NCBI GenBank assembly: GCA_029260165.1
Contig: JAJDDT010000064.1
Coordinates: 1 to 64,000, forward strand
Source: Phycisphaerae bacterium
GTDB taxonomy: Bacteria; Planctomycetota; Phycisphaerae; UBA1845
Direction: 5' to 3'
Length of the DNA: 64,000 nucleotides
Notes under the pieces: generated by a model
The model's input: the letters and a program-made list of their open reading frames with translations, nothing else
What the model was told of the DNA's origin: nothing
The model's database searches: none
In this document: positions 21,055 to 57,902 of the stretch, one piece after another
Layout: the number at the start of each line of letters is the position of its first letter
How positions within the stretch are numbered: position 1 is the stretch's first letter
Translations under genes and position numbers: made by a program

Positions 21055-21208
21055 CTATCCCGGCGGGGCGACACCGATCCCTTCGACGCCATCCTGCAAC
21101 CGGGCTGCCCGCGACGCTGGTCCGGATTCCGATTCAAACTGATTTCCCGGTTTTGTGGTAACCGATGTATGGCTGATGCGTCTAAACAGGCGGTAACCGG
21201 AGCGGTTA

Positions 21209-21775
21209 ATGGGTGATTCGGAATCACAATTGGTGAAACGGGCGGCGAGGCGCGATCGGGCGGCGTTCGAGGTGCTGTATCGACGGCATGTCGATCGGGT
21301 GTGGCGATATGCGTGGTTTCGGACGCGGTCGCGTGAGGCTGCGTCCGATATTACGCAGGACACGTTCGTGCGGGTGGCGAAGGCGATCGGAACGTTTCGG
21401 GGTGACAGTTCGTTTTCGACGTGGGTATTGGCGATCGCGCGGTCGGTGGCGGTGGATCATGCACGGAAGGTGTCTCGCGAGCGGGCGATGCGGGAGTCGG
21501 AGGGGCGGTTGAAGTTTGTGGCAGCTGAGGAGGTGAAGGCGGCGGATGGGCATGATGCGTTGCGGTCAGCCATTCAGATGTTGCCGGCGGCGATGCGGGA
21601 TGTGGTGGTGTTGTGTGAGTTGTCGGGGATGTCGGTTCGGGAGGCGGCTGGTGTGTTGGGTTGGAGTGAGTCGCGGGTGAAGACGACGGCGTTTCGGGCG
21701 CGAAGGAAATTGCGCGAGCGGTTGGGGAAAGACAGAGAGGGGGATGAGTTGAGTGATGACGTTGTTGATGTTTGA
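21209..21775 (+). CDS. ECF-type RNA polymerase sigma factor
   Basis: 188 residues. Region 2 (RDRAAFEVLYRRHVDRVWRY, ASDITQDTFVRVAKAI, FSTWVLAIARSVAVDH) and region 4 (LPAAMRDVVVLCELSGMSVR, EAAGVLGWSESRVKTTAFRA) are complete. It directs core polymerase to a stress or envelope regulon. The anti-sigma-like gene starts 57 bp downstream. Start ATG 21209; TTG/GTG alternatives are not evident. A perfect hairpin sits in the spacer between the two genes. Confidence 0.93.
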   Translation: MGDSESQLVKRAARRDRAAFEVLYRRHVDRVWRYAWFRTRSREAASDITQDTFVRVAKAIGTFRGDSSFSTWVLAIARSVAVDHARKVSRERAMRESEGRLKFVAAEEVKAADGHDALRSAIQMLPAAMRDVVVLCELSGMSVREAAGVLGWSESRVKTTAFRARRKLRERLGKDREGDELSDDVVDV

Positions 21776-21784
21776 AATCGAGAA

Positions 21785-21804
21785 CCCACGTCTGAAGACG
21801 TGGG
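21785..21804. repeat. Perfect 9-bp palindrome between sigma and anti-sigma genes
   Basis: CCCACGTCT (21785-21793), GA, AGACGTGGG (21796-21804). Located inside the 57-bp spacer of a likely operon, it could tune the ratio of the two proteins as an mRNA hairpin. A related-looking palindrome of the same size (CCCATGGCT/AGCCGTGGG) is at 28246-28265, suggesting a second dispersed repeat type lacking GTAG. Confidence 0.6.
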
Positions 21805-21832
21805 GCACCCATGTGAATTGGGACGGTGTGTG

Positions 21833-24670
21833 ATGAAGTGTGACATTGCCAGGGACATGATGGACGAGCGGTTGCAACTCCTCGCGGAAGGGGCGGAGGG
21901 TGATCGGGATTGGTCTGCGCTCGATTTGCACCTGGCGGACTGTGATGCCTGTGCGTCGGACTGGGCGGAGTTGTTGGGTGTGCGTAATGGTTTGAGCGAT
22001 TTGGCGGGCGATGGTCCGACAACGGAGGAGGTTGACGCGATGCTGGCTGTGGTTGAGACGCGGGCGTTTGGGCGATCGGGTGCTGGTTTGTTGGGTATGT
22101 TTGACTGTTGGGGGAAGGTGATACAGAGCACGCCGGTGCGGGCGCTGTTGGCGACGGCTGCGGTGGTGGTGTTTTCGGTTGGGGTGACGACGCTGATGGA
22201 CGCCAGGAAAGCGTCACGAGGGTCGTTGGGATCGTCGGTGGAATATTTGGGTGTGGGTTCGACGATAGATTCGGCCAAGGTCGTTCTTGGTGAGCGTTTC
22301 ATGTCGCCTTCGTCTGGGGATTCCATTGATAATCAGCGGCTTGCAGGCTTTGAAGTCGCCGACAAGTTCAGCGGCGTTGAGCCAGGATCCGAGATTGGGG
22401 TCACGTCAACAACGCGGGGGACGTACCTTGCCCAATCGGCGTTGAGCGCTGGGGCGGCGAGTGTGGCGGCGTCTCCACAATACGAAAACACTGAATTCAA
22501 CAAATCACAGCCGAGACGGGAGGCCTACCGCGTTTTTGATTCGCATTCGCCAGTCCAATCAGTAATTGAGGCTGGTGAGCGACGACAGAAATTTGGGTCG
22601 ATGACGAGGGGCCGCACCGAGGCGGAAGCCCACGAGGTTCTGATTCCGCGGTATACGACCGCGAACGAGCTAGGTGAGGATTTGGACAGATTCGCTAGCG
22701 AAAACAATCGTAGACGAAGAAAAGGAAAACGCTATTTTCAGTTGCCATCCGAAGCTTCGGGCGGGCAAGAAAATGTTCAGTCGATTTTCGGGCAAAGCGA
22801 AATTGGTCGCACGGAAGAACGCAAGGCGAAAACCTCTGCGAATTACAGTATTGCTCCGTCTTCTGAACAGGTGTTTGAGGCTTCCGGCAATTTGACGCTC
22901 GTAGAAGAATTGGAAAGGGTTGGCGCGGGCAAGAGCTACTATCGCGATAGACCAACAGATGACGAGAACGGCCTCAATAAGCAATCGTCGGTTCAGCATG
23001 ATGCAGGGGGTGATGAACAGACAACAGTGACGCAACCCGCGCCGGTTGTGCGTAAAACGAAGGTGATCAAGACCGGTGAGCTTGGGCTTGAGGTTGAATC
23101 TTATGTCGAGGCGTCTCGGCGGGTTGAATCGATCGTTGACGAGCATGGCGGGTTTGTGGCGGATGCGACGACGGCTGAGCAGGCGGGTGGAGCGATGGTG
23201 GGGACGATGGTTGTTCGCGTGGACCCGGAGCGGTTTGAGGGGCTGTTTGCGGCGCTCAAGTCGATCGGACGTGTTGGGCATGAGCATGTGAAGGCTGCGG
23301 ATGTGACGGCGGATTGGGTTGATCTGGAGGCACGGATCAAGGGGTTGTTGATCACGGAGAATCGTTTGCAGGAGTTGGTGCAGAACAAGTCGATTATCGA
23401 CAAGGTATCTGCCCTGTTGGAGGTGGAGCGGGAGCTGACGCGGGTGCGGTCGAGTGTGGAGCAGTTGCAGGGGCAGTTGCGGGTGATGGCTGACCGGGTC
23501 GGGTTTTCGACGATGACGGTGCGGTTGAGTGAGGCTGACCGGACGGTGCCGCGTGCGTCGTTCTGGATTGAGGTGGGCGATGTGCAGGAATCGTTGCCGG
23601 CGTTGAATGGGTTGGTGGAGCGGTTGGGGGCGAAGCTGACGTCTACGGAAACGACGAAGCGCGATGACGGGACGTTCAAGGCGGACAATTCGCTGGTGGT
23701 GTCGCTTGCGAAGTTCGGGGAGGTGTTGTCGGCCGTCGATTCGCTGGGGCGAGTGAAGCACAGAATTGTGAAGGACTGGGAGTCGGCGGATGCGGGGGCG
23801 ACTTGGGCGGACGAGGTTCGTTGTAACGTGGGAATCATCATGCACGAGCGGTCGTATCAGTTGCCGGCGGGGACGGTGCAGGTGGAGGTGTCGACGCTGG
23901 AGGATGGGATGGCTGCGTTGGATGCGGTGCTGGAGGCGGTGGGCGGTGCGATTGCGAACAACACGTCGCGGCGGAACAGTGATGGCAGCGTGTCGGCTGA
24001 TTTGAAATTGAGCGTGTCGGCGGGGCGGTTTGCGGCGTTGGTGGATCGGTTGGGGTCGATCGGGCGGACGTTGAACAAGACGGTGGCTGGCGAGGCGGGT
24101 GAGATTACGGGTGGGGCGTCGCTGGTGCCTTGCGAGTTGTCGCTGACGCTGAGCGAGCCTGTGCGTGAGGTTCCCAGCGGGAACATGGTGGTCGAGGTTG
24201 GGGATTTTTCGACGGCGACGGATCGGTTGAGCCAGTTGGTGGATGCGGACAGGTTGCAGGTGTTGGGTTCGTCGAGCACGCAGCGGAACGATGGAACGTG
24301 GGCGGGATATTTTCGGATTGGGGTGGCCACCAGCGACATGGAGGATGTGGTTTCTGCTGTTGAGAAGTTGGGGCGGGTGACGTCGCGGCAGGTGATTGGT
24401 TTGGGGTTGGGGACGTTGTCGCGGATGGACAAGGATGCGTTGGGGGTGATCGAGTTGACGCTGACGGAGCCTGCGGCGATGCGTCCGTCGCCGGATCGTG
24501 CGAGCGGGCCCATCCGCAAGGCGTTTTCGGATGGATTGGCCGGGTTGTATTCATCGCTGGCGTTGATCGTGCGTGCGGTGATCACGGCTGGTCCCTGGTT
24601 GGTGATGGCGATGGCGTTGCTGTTTGTGGTGTCGCGGGCGAGGCGACGAGTGAAAGATGGTACTGGATAG
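21833..24670 (+). CDS. Anti-sigma-like membrane protein with DUF4349 repeat array
   Basis: 945 residues from ATG 21833. Residues about 1-50 form a zinc-finger anti-sigma domain (LDLHLADCDACASDWAELLG, HxxxCxxC). One transmembrane segment follows at about 105-125 (ALLATAAVVVFSVGVTTLMD), then ~270 residues of low-complexity linker. From about residue 405 comes a canonical DUF4349 domain (KVIKTGELGLEVESYVEASR, WVDLEARIKGLLITENRLQE, coiled coil LLEVERELTRVRSSVEQLQG). Three further ~100-residue segments (starting WIEVGDVQESLPALN, VQVEVSTLEDGMAALDAV, MVVEVGDFSTATDRL) repeat the strand-helix-'RNDGT'-strand pattern without the coiled coil. A second transmembrane segment (WLVMAMALLFVV) and a basic tail close the protein. 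Likely holds the neighbouring ECF sigma factor at the membrane and senses something outside. Confidence 0.82.
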   Translation: MKCDIARDMMDERLQLLAEGAEGDRDWSALDLHLADCDACASDWAELLGVRNGLSDLAGDGPTTEEVDAMLAVVETRAFGRSGAGLLGMFDCWGKVIQSTPVRALLATAAVVVFSVGVTTLMDARKASRGSLGSSVEYLGVGSTIDSAKVVLGERFMSPSSGDSIDNQRLAGFEVADKFSGVEPGSEIGVTSTTRGTYLAQSALSAGAASVAASPQYENTEFNKSQPRREAYRVFDSHSPVQSVIEAGERRQKFGSMTRGRTEAEAHEVLIPRYTTANELGEDLDRFASENNRRRRKGKRYFQLPSEASGGQENVQSIFGQSEIGRTEERKAKTSANYSIAPSSEQVFEASGNLTLVEELERVGAGKSYYRDRPTDDENGLNKQSSVQHDAGGDEQTTVTQPAPVVRKTKVIKTGELGLEVESYVEASRRVESIVDEHGGFVADATTAEQAGGAMVGTMVVRVDPERFEGLFAALKSIGRVGHEHVKAADVTADWVDLEARIKGLLITENRLQELVQNKSIIDKVSALLEVERELTRVRSSVEQLQGQLRVMADRVGFSTMTVRLSEADRTVPRASFWIEVGDVQESLPALNGLVERLGAKLTSTETTKRDDGTFKADNSLVVSLAKFGEVLSAVDSLGRVKHRIVKDWESADAGATWADEVRCNVGIIMHERSYQLPAGTVQVEVSTLEDGMAALDAVLEAVGGAIANNTSRRNSDGSVSADLKLSVSAGRFAALVDRLGSIGRTLNKTVAGEAGEITGGASLVPCELSLTLSEPVREVPSGNMVVEVGDFSTATDRLSQLVDADRLQVLGSSSTQRNDGTWAGYFRIGVATSDMEDVVSAVEKLGRVTSRQVIGLGLGTLSRMDKDALGVIELTLTEPAAMRPSPDRASGPIRKAFSDGLAGLYSSLALIVRAVITAGPWLVMAMALLFVVSRARRRVKDGTG

Positions 24671-55543: not shown

Positions 55544-56015
55544 GTTTTCGTCTCACTTGAAACGATGAGAATCCACTTGAAGGGGCACTGATATTTTCCC
55601 TGATTAAGGTCGGGTGATTTGGGGGGATGATCGACAGTTTTTCCATTTTTAGTCTGGAGTTGTTCGGATAATATCGATCCCCGGTGTTTTATTGGACGTT
55701 TCGGCGTTTGATTCCTGCATCCTGGGTGAATGTACCAGTCGTCGGTGGTGCATGGATTCGACAGGAGGTCGACAACAGGCGGTTGGGATCCGTGATTTTG
55801 GCGGCGTATGTAGAAATCGGCTCGTGAAAGGTTCCCACATCGGCGCCTGAAACAACCTCGCCGGGGTAATATCACCCAGGCGTCGCAGCCCATGCGGTCA
55901 CGAACCCCGCCCCGGGACCCCACGGGCACCTTCGTTGCTGACATGGTCGGGCGAGCCTATACTCGCGCACGAAAATCAGGACGGTCGAGTTCCACAATTC
56001 CTGAAGCGGGGCGCT

Positions 56016-57902
56016 ATGTCCATCATCCATGTTTTGCCCGACATCCTGGTCAAGAAGATCGCGGCTGGCGAGGTGATTGAACGACCTGCCAGTGTGATCA
56101 AGGAGATCATGGAAAATGCTATCGATGCGGGTGCGACGCGGGTGTCGGTGCATGTCGAGGATGGCGGGAAGGCACTGATGCGCGTCAGCGATGACGGTTG
56201 CGGGATGTTGGCTGACGACCTGCGATTGGCCATCACCCCCCACGCCACGAGCAAGCTGGCTGAGGAGGAAGACTTGTACCACATCGGATCGCTGGGTTTC
56301 CGCGGTGAGGCGTTGGCCAGCATCGGGTCGATTTCCCGCGTCACCATCCGATCACGTCCCCACGAAATAAGCGAGGGGGCTGAGATCGTCGTGGAGGCTG
56401 AGGAGGTTCATGCCAATCGTGCGGCTGGCTGCCCGGCTGGCACGACCGTTGAGGTTCGCGACCTCTTTTTCAACGTGCCCGCCCGACGTAAATTCCTTCG
56501 CAACAGCGGCACCGAGTTCGGGCACATCAACACCCAGTTCGCCCGCATTGCACTCGCACATCCTGACGTCGGATTTGAATTGCACAACAACGGGAAATCC
56601 GTGCACAATCTTCCCGCGGGACAATCACCCGTCGAACGCATCAGTCGATTCTACAGTCGCGAGCTTGGTGACGACATGATTGCTTTCGAGCGACGTACCG
56701 AGGGCATCGAGATCGTTGGTTTCGCGGGTCAGCCATCCGGTGCCCGATCGTCCGGGAACTGGCAGTTTTCATTTCTGAATCGCCGATTCATCCGCGACAA
56801 ATTTATCCAGCACGCCATCAAGGAAGCCTATCGGGGGTTGATCGACCCGCGACGATTTCCCGTCGTTTTTCTGTTCATTTCCGTCAATCCTGCCACGGTC
56901 GACGTGAACGTGCACCCCACCAAAATGGAGGTCCGCTGGCAGGATTCCGGGACGATCCATCGCGAGGTGCTGTCGTCTCTGCGTGAGGCATTGGGGTCGG
57001 CTGACCTGACGCCGACGTTCGATCCGCAGAGCACGTCGCGCCCGCCTGTCGATCCTGCCCAACAGGATGCGATCCGCCGTCAATTCGCAGATCAGTTCAA
57101 ATCGATGACGCCGTCGCAACCGTCGCTCGCCTTCGGACCCGACGCACAGGCTCGCAGCGGTTCAACCTCTCGTCCGCCCATGCACCCATCAAGCGGAAAC
57201 CCCGCGCAGGGTATGGACATGTGGGAGCAGGTTTATGGGCAGCGGGACGCGTCGCACGATCCTGACCAGACCATTGCCGCAATGGATCAACCCTACGCTG
57301 TCGCAGGTCCGGACGTGGTTATTCCGCATTCCGTCAAGGGTGCGATTCAACTGCACAACACCTATCTCGTTTGCGAAACCGATGAGGGCATGATGATCAT
57401 CGATCAGCACGCGTTGCACGAACGCATCATGTTCGAGCAGCTCAGGGACCGCATGACGCGAGGTCCGCTGGAATCGCAACGATTGCTTCTGCCCGAGACC
57501 TTGTCCGTCTCGGCCAGCGCGTTGGCTGTCCTGGAATCGGAACCGGAACTGCTCAACAGGCTCGGGTTTGAGGTGTCGCGTTTTGGGTCCGATGCTGTCG
57601 CGCTCCAGGCCATTCCGTCCATCCTCAGGGATCGTGATGCCACCGAATTCTTCCGCGATTTTCTCGACAGACTGTCATCCAAAACCGGTGATGAGCCGGC
57701 TGAGTCGTTCATTTACGACATTCTGTCCATGATGGCGTGTAAGGCTGCTGTGAAGGCGGGCGACCCGCTCACGCCCGAGGAAATCGAATCGCTGCTTGCC
57801 CAGAAAGACCTCGTTGAGAAATCCAGCAACTGCCCCCATGGGCGACCGACGACGCTGAGGCTTACCGTCCGCGACCTGGAAAGACAGTTCAAGCGGACGT
57901 AA
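56016..57902 (+). CDS. mutL: DNA mismatch repair endonuclease MutL
   Basis: 628 residues from ATG 56016. N-terminal GHKL ATPase: KIAAGEVIERPASVIKEIME, NAIDAGATRVSV, LGFRGEALASIGSI, GTTVEVRDLFFNVPARRKFL, and STVDVNVHPTKMEVR-type text. C-terminal endonuclease motif DQHALHERIMFE (residues 463-474, DQHA-x2-E-x4-E), ACKAAVKAGD and CPHGRPT are intact, as expected for bacteria without MutH. A Pro/Ser/Gln linker joins the halves. No mutS in the window. Confidence 0.96.
   Translation: MSIIHVLPDILVKKIAAGEVIERPASVIKEIMENAIDAGATRVSVHVEDGGKALMRVSDDGCGMLADDLRLAITPHATSKLAEEEDLYHIGSLGFRGEALASIGSISRVTIRSRPHEISEGAEIVVEAEEVHANRAAGCPAGTTVEVRDLFFNVPARRKFLRNSGTEFGHINTQFARIALAHPDVGFELHNNGKSVHNLPAGQSPVERISRFYSRELGDDMIAFERRTEGIEIVGFAGQPSGARSSGNWQFSFLNRRFIRDKFIQHAIKEAYRGLIDPRRFPVVFLFISVNPATVDVNVHPTKMEVRWQDSGTIHREVLSSLREALGSADLTPTFDPQSTSRPPVDPAQQDAIRRQFADQFKSMTPSQPSLAFGPDAQARSGSTSRPPMHPSSGNPAQGMDMWEQVYGQRDASHDPDQTIAAMDQPYAVAGPDVVIPHSVKGAIQLHNTYLVCETDEGMMIIDQHALHERIMFEQLRDRMTRGPLESQRLLLPETLSVSASALAVLESEPELLNRLGFEVSRFGSDAVALQAIPSILRDRDATEFFRDFLDRLSSKTGDEPAESFIYDILSMMACKAAVKAGDPLTPEEIESLLAQKDLVEKSSNCPHGRPTTLRLTVRDLERQFKRT

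Follow-up and report, generated by a model that had tools for sequence, protein, structure and literature searches.

What does a bacterium do with a 945-residue protein that starts like an anti-sigma factor, appears to be anchored in the membrane at both ends and holds four related domains in between? The question is raised by two consecutive genes in a 64,000-nucleotide stretch from a Phycisphaerae bacterium (GenBank assembly GCA_029260165.1, contig JAJDDT010000064.1), hereafter called the window; the features of this two-gene locus described below lie on its forward strand. The first gene (21209..21775) encodes a protein of 188 amino acids (aa) in which Pfam finds sigma-70 regions 2 and 4 only (PF04542, E = 1.2e-16; PF08281, E = 8.4e-15), as in extracytoplasmic function (ECF) sigma factors. 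The second (21833..24670) lies downstream of it and codes for 945 aa from an ATG, or for 956 aa from an alternative GTG start at 21800. An initial annotation, made from the sequence alone, had placed the gene pair at the correct coordinates and had proposed an ECF sigma factor paired with a membrane-bound anti-sigma protein carrying an array of DUF4349-like domains. We read the locus as an autoregulated pair of an ECF sigma factor and a membrane anti-sigma factor anchored at both ends, with the DUF4349 array as periplasmic sensor and proteolysis as the means of sigma release, and assign this reading a probability of roughly 0.68.

DUF4349 (PF14257) is the only Pfam family matched by the second protein (E = 4.8e-66; 222.6 bits against a cut-off of 27.7), and the match falls into five separate stretches. 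Unit 1 (aa 405-572; 23045..23548) is a canonical DUF4349 domain with a helical coiled-coil hairpin, covering model positions 2-163 with aa 410-574. It is followed by three copies that lack the coil, namely unit 2 (aa 573-677; 23549..23863), unit 3 (aa 678-779; 23864..24169) and unit 4 (aa 780-882; 24170..24478), each delimited by PF14257, hhalign and structure models. These copies match positions 6-79 of the Pfam model in part, each scoring above the cut-off alone or combined with its neighbours, and in a genome-wide search the matches of the extra units to the same positions had E-values of 1.6e-7, 6.9e-6 and 6.0e-5. Model positions 146-211 are matched jointly by the last strand of unit 4 and the C-terminal segment of the protein, and the whole can be read as one DUF4349 domain with three coil-less copies inserted between its last strand and its transmembrane (TM) anchor. 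With profiles built over ten orthologues, hhalign related every pair of the four unit cores at 97.1-98.8% probability (E = 1e-10 to 9e-16), compared with 2.5% for a control in which the unrelated C-terminal tail was set against the canonical unit. This homology bears out the earlier description of a canonical domain with coiled coil and three further copies; the possibility that the later units might not resemble DUF4349 was checked and did not materialise.

Structure prediction gives every unit the element order beta-alpha-beta-beta-alpha-beta-[insert]-beta, the insert forming the coiled coil of DUF4349 in unit 1 only (helices at aa 492-517 and 525-556 of the model), so that a coil in every unit, as the family would have it, is not seen. 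The shared predicted order speaks for a single fold in all four units, a point that the initial annotation had left to modelling. Modelled separately from an alignment of units, unit 3 reached a pLDDT of 83 and a pTM of 0.73. The whole array was modelled from an alignment of two rows (the window sequence and that of locus L051) with a pLDDT of 65 and a pTM of 0.29, and for this reason the relative arrangement of the units should not be taken from that model. Sequence searches found no solved relative of the array, and Foldseek with the unit model returned nothing below E = 0.27, its matches being ferredoxin-like folds generally (AdoMet decarboxylase, PilO, PII, S6 and NikR). A glyoxalase match to the whole-array model (E = 9.8e-5, root-mean-square deviation 31 Å, TM-score 0.09) was discarded as meaningless at this pTM.

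The RNDGT motif, reported earlier as common to the units, does lie at the beta-turn that connects strand 2 to strand 3, but its letters are not strictly kept in every unit. Ferredoxin-like units with a DG-S/T turn at this point, which presumably resembles the place of SEA-domain cleavage, could in principle make the array a self-cleaving sensor of the RsgI/SEAL kind that is cut within the strand 2-3 hairpin. Yet the residue after the glycine varies among T, S and A in unit 2, among S, T and R in unit 3 and among T, S, K and V in unit 4, the unit 4 turn reads D-R or D-E in two orthologues, and the best Foldseek matches shown include no SEA-domain protein. With no nucleophile conserved in the hairpin, we reject cleavage of this type as extremely improbable.

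We then asked how widely the arrangement occurs. In a sample of the phylum, 92 of 392 genomes encode DUF4349. Eight intact orthologues of the array protein were found in the bacterium's own family, and another family of the same order contributed one more array. Beyond these two, seven families (numbered f44, f64, f69, f95, f101, f104 and f112 in our set) have loci in which three to five units were detected. The search across Planctomycetota called for by the initial annotation thus showed arrays of three to five units recurring in eight families besides the bacterium's own, all of them planctomycete. In 21 loci spread over seven families the array gene immediately follows an ECF sigma gene, which supports the proposed pairing, and a sigma orthologue precedes each intact array protein of family f1. 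No neighbouring gene other than the sigma/anti-sigma pair is common to the window and its relatives, and we therefore take the sigma gene and the array gene as the unit. Genome G056 and the odd contig G301b are the exceptions to adjacency. On the latter, sigma region 2 is fused in frame to the middle of the array and followed by a C-terminal TM helix (locus L088, 6139-7923); we disregard this case, which probably arose by misassembly or deletion. The sigma/array pair is, in sum, a conserved planctomycete family with a variable number of repeats.

DUF4349 also occurs behind sigma genes as a single unit. Seven of the single-DUF4349 loci examined directly follow an ECF sigma gene, and the N-terminus of their product is short and not of the zinc type. 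These proteins (L109 and L114-L119) are TM-DUF4349-TM proteins of about 400-480 aa, with a conserved N-terminus that follows a pattern like LExxLxxLTxWxGPxxxLWRxAL. They apparently represent a simpler and likewise undescribed sigma partner, and their presence in the same class implies that membrane proteins linked to sigma factors use DUF4349 as their outer domain also where there is no array.

The history of the repeats was followed in an unrooted tree of 106 units, which over 75 columns is poorly resolved. First units all group together (support 93), as do units 3 of f1, f7, f69 and f112 (91) and units 4 of f1, f7, f69 and f101 (99), and the extra units of f95 and f44 form a separate group (98). 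This grouping implies that the register of the window array is older than the split from f69 and that another lineage expanded its arrays separately. A five-unit array in G283 (L085, 266-3328) contains a recent duplicate of unit 4 in the tree, evidence that repeat number changes.

At its N-terminus, the array protein has a predicted cytosolic zinc-type anti-sigma domain (aa 1-80; 21833..22072) with C3 and the Hx3Cx2C motif HLADCDAC at aa 33-40 (H33, C37, C40). Of the 20 array proteins whose N-terminus is intact, 18 have the motif, and Pfam matches zf-HC2 in four of ten orthologues (best E = 2.1e-6). Membrane-bound anti-sigma factors with an N-terminal domain of this type sequester their sigma factor (PMC7406223), as is also generally known. 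A first TM helix (TM1) is placed by hydropathy and alignment at about aa 102-122 (22136..22198), with the hydropathy peak at about aa 102-124, and holds a conserved xAA tripeptide. The C-terminal helix (aa 892-943; 24506..24661), supported by the model and the PF14257 match, includes a second hydropathy peak at about aa 907-935 and has an Arg/Lys-rich end that is predicted to be cytosolic. The zinc finger and the two membrane helices of the initial annotation are hence all recovered. Between TM1 and the array runs a linker of about 275 aa (aa 126-400; 22208..23032), presumed to be disordered and periplasmic, which evolves fast and is only 11-24% identical to its orthologues.

These N-terminal features bear on whether the second protein is an anti-sigma factor at all, or a structural component of the envelope whose gene just happens to lie in the sigma operon. 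On plasmids we found distant single DUF4349 proteins only, and those examined outside the planctomycetes stand alone, with no sigma gene in the two annotated neighbourhoods inspected; the G056 array likewise has no neighbouring sigma gene. Against a structural role stand the zinc-type N-terminus in most intact array proteins, the zf-HC2 matches and the 21 sigma-adjacent loci, and we consider it very unlikely. No relatives of the array were found on viral contigs.

Upstream of the sigma gene we predict an ECF-type promoter (21158..21185) with GTAACC as -35 element, a 15-nucleotide spacer and CGTCTAA as -10 element. It is conserved among relatives as GTAACC-N15/16-CGTCTAA, and its -35 element contains the AAC expected of autoregulated ECF promoters. 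Among the 14 loci from f1 and f69, a script detected the pattern GTAACC-N-[CG]TCT[AC]A before the sigma gene in 13, and in the 14th (G035) the motif was seen on inspection just outside the scanned stretch; the chance expectation from shuffled sequences is 0.004 over 21 loci. The pattern is absent from all seven loci of the remaining array families. An exact copy of the 13-base motif is found a single time in the window genome, as it is in each of four relatives, and every one of these sites belongs to this operon, which implies that the sigma factor regulates itself; autoregulation is to this extent supported by sequence. Near matches were no more numerous than with a reversed-pattern control, and we accordingly name no regulon targets. 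The search for a promoter motif shared with target genes, which had been suggested earlier, thus yielded the motif at the operon itself but no further genes.

The reading given at the outset builds on the architecture, the homology of the units, their conservation, the gene pairing and the conserved promoter, all observed here, and would add to them sigma binding, a topology, a proteolytic release and a signal of the following kind. The N-terminal zinc-type domain would bind and silence the sigma factor in the cytosol, and both ends of the protein would be fixed in the inner membrane, with the long flexible linker and the four ferredoxin-like DUF4349 units between the anchors forming a periplasmic sensor. 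A change in the array, caused by a ligand, a partner protein or envelope damage, may then make the linker, or the stretch around TM1, accessible to a periplasmic protease. A single cut would release TM1 from the bulky array, after which a site-2 protease could cleave TM1; the anti-sigma fragment would be degraded, and the freed sigma factor would transcribe its own operon from GTAACC-N15-CGTCTAA. The window genome has four matches to M50, the site-2 protease family. In the TM1 alignment A109 is kept in nine of ten sequences and A110 in all ten, and an AA pair is found in 20 of 21 first TM helices, where 12.4 would be expected. ClpXP recognises xAA sites in RsgI fragments (PMC12203970), to which the AA of TM1 may be loosely compared. 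Both the M50 proteases and the AA of TM1 are compatible with a proteolytic route but not specific to it.

Several points weigh against this reading. M50 proteases occur in all 14 control genomes and, being near universal, do not single out proteolysis. AA tripeptides are commonplace in alanine-rich helices, and their excess in TM1 is weak support for cleavage. We infer sigma binding by residues 1-90, and Pfam does not match zf-HC2 in the window protein itself. In G056 (L045, 7678-9972) the array protein has neither an adjacent sigma gene nor a recognisable zinc motif. Finally, the sequences compared are related, and counts of conservation are not independent. As an observation on that locus, a divergent homologue of the window's MutL gene (55935-57902) occupies the expected sigma position in G056.

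The protein could also act as an anti-sigma factor without being cut, if the shape or tension of the array between its two anchors pulled or twisted TM1 and so altered the cytosolic domain, much like a stretch gauge across the periplasm. Several compact units in series between two membrane anchors suit this idea, and repeat number differs between relatives, as it may in extensible chains, with five units in G283. The fast-evolving linker between TM1 and the array would, however, slacken any mechanical coupling, and no evidence was found for attachment to the cell wall or outer membrane; nothing favours stretch over the sensing of a ligand, a partner protein or a protease. We regard such a mechanism as unlikely. 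That the double-anchored chain is an adjustable force or distance gauge of the planctomycete envelope, with repeat number tuned by lineage and an ECF sigma factor as its output, is a long shot.

A different signal is suggested by two cysteines, C664 in unit 2 and C767 in unit 3, each at the start of the last strand. The conservation of cysteines at matching positions allows an inter-unit disulfide to be proposed, and C664 and C767 may possibly staple units 2 and 3 together and report the oxidative state of the envelope or folding stress. Families f1, f69, f101 and f112 keep the pair at homologous positions, 103-104 residues apart, and in most proteins of f1 and f69 the array region contains no other cysteine. 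One of the two has nevertheless been lost in four relatives (G006 and G311 in unit 3; G026 and G056 in unit 2), and the arrays of f95, f44, f64 and f104 lack the pair; it is therefore not essential. Any disulfide may be merely structural, and the low pTM of the whole-array model offers no help with its geometry. A redox sensor is, in our judgement, quite unlikely, and we retain proteolytic release of the sigma factor, triggered through the array, as the preferred reading.

Two further sequence features of the locus deserve mention. A perfect 8-bp stem, CCCACGTC-TGAA-GACGTGGG, lies in the gap between the two genes (21785..21804) and could affect the ratio of sigma to anti-sigma protein; an 18-mer of this hairpin has one other copy in the genome, between genes resembling the DUF58 and BatD types. 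Within the linker, the 29-residue peptide EIGVTSTTRGTYLAQSALSAGAASVAASP (aa 187-215; 22391-22477) shares 86% identity with part of a large, apparently secreted protein of a sister species. A similar stretch is present in the window's own genome, where a DNA identity of only about 73% indicates that the copy is not fresh, and among 45 genomes searched such peptides were confined to the window's genus.

ECF sigma factors are abundant in planctomycetes, and the signals sensed by the partners of these factors are mostly unknown. The present family combines a conserved promoter with a compact sensor unit in repeated form and offers a single-unit version for comparison, which makes its signalling testable. 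It also suggests that DUF4349, on which the literature searched is almost silent, may act as the outer sensor in anti-sigma factors. In that literature, which left out subscription papers and supplements, DUF4349 is mentioned in two papers, in neither case alongside an anti-sigma factor. The initial annotation's statement that no such system has been described holds for these sources, but the arrangement is no one-off. ECF/anti-sigma pairs as such are well known; what is apparently undescribed is a pair with a repeated sensor architecture.

Among known systems, the window protein resembles the class I, zinc-type anti-sigma factors (ASDI; RsiW and relatives) in its gene position directly after an ECF sigma gene, its N-terminal Hx3Cx2C motif (here HLADCDAC), its TM helix, its presumed extracytoplasmic sensor domain and its predicted autoregulated promoter (PMC7406223). 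It differs from them in the four-unit DUF4349 sensor, the second, C-terminal TM helix and the long linker. With other DUF4349 proteins it shares the canonical unit with coiled coil and the C-terminal TM anchor; a Methylobacterium member with a lipobox, for instance, has been listed among candidate tail-anchored exported proteins (PMC10924467). The Pfam model describes one unit with its coil, whereas the window protein adds three coil-less copies before the TM anchor and begins with an anti-sigma domain in place of the signal peptide of DUF4349 proteins. RsgI proteins with SEAL or SEA-like domains likewise combine an anti-sigma domain, an AA-containing TM helix, a compact periplasmic domain, a long linker and an outer sensor (PMC12203970). 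The window protein, in contrast, partners an ECF sigma factor rather than SigI, is anchored at both ends, has no conserved self-cleavage residue and contains no carbohydrate-binding module that we could find. RseA, with its periplasmic domain, releases RpoE by successive cleavage. Our working model of stepwise proteolytic release would by analogy follow this type of regulated intramembrane proteolysis, carried out on a protein with two TM anchors and an unrelated periplasmic domain.

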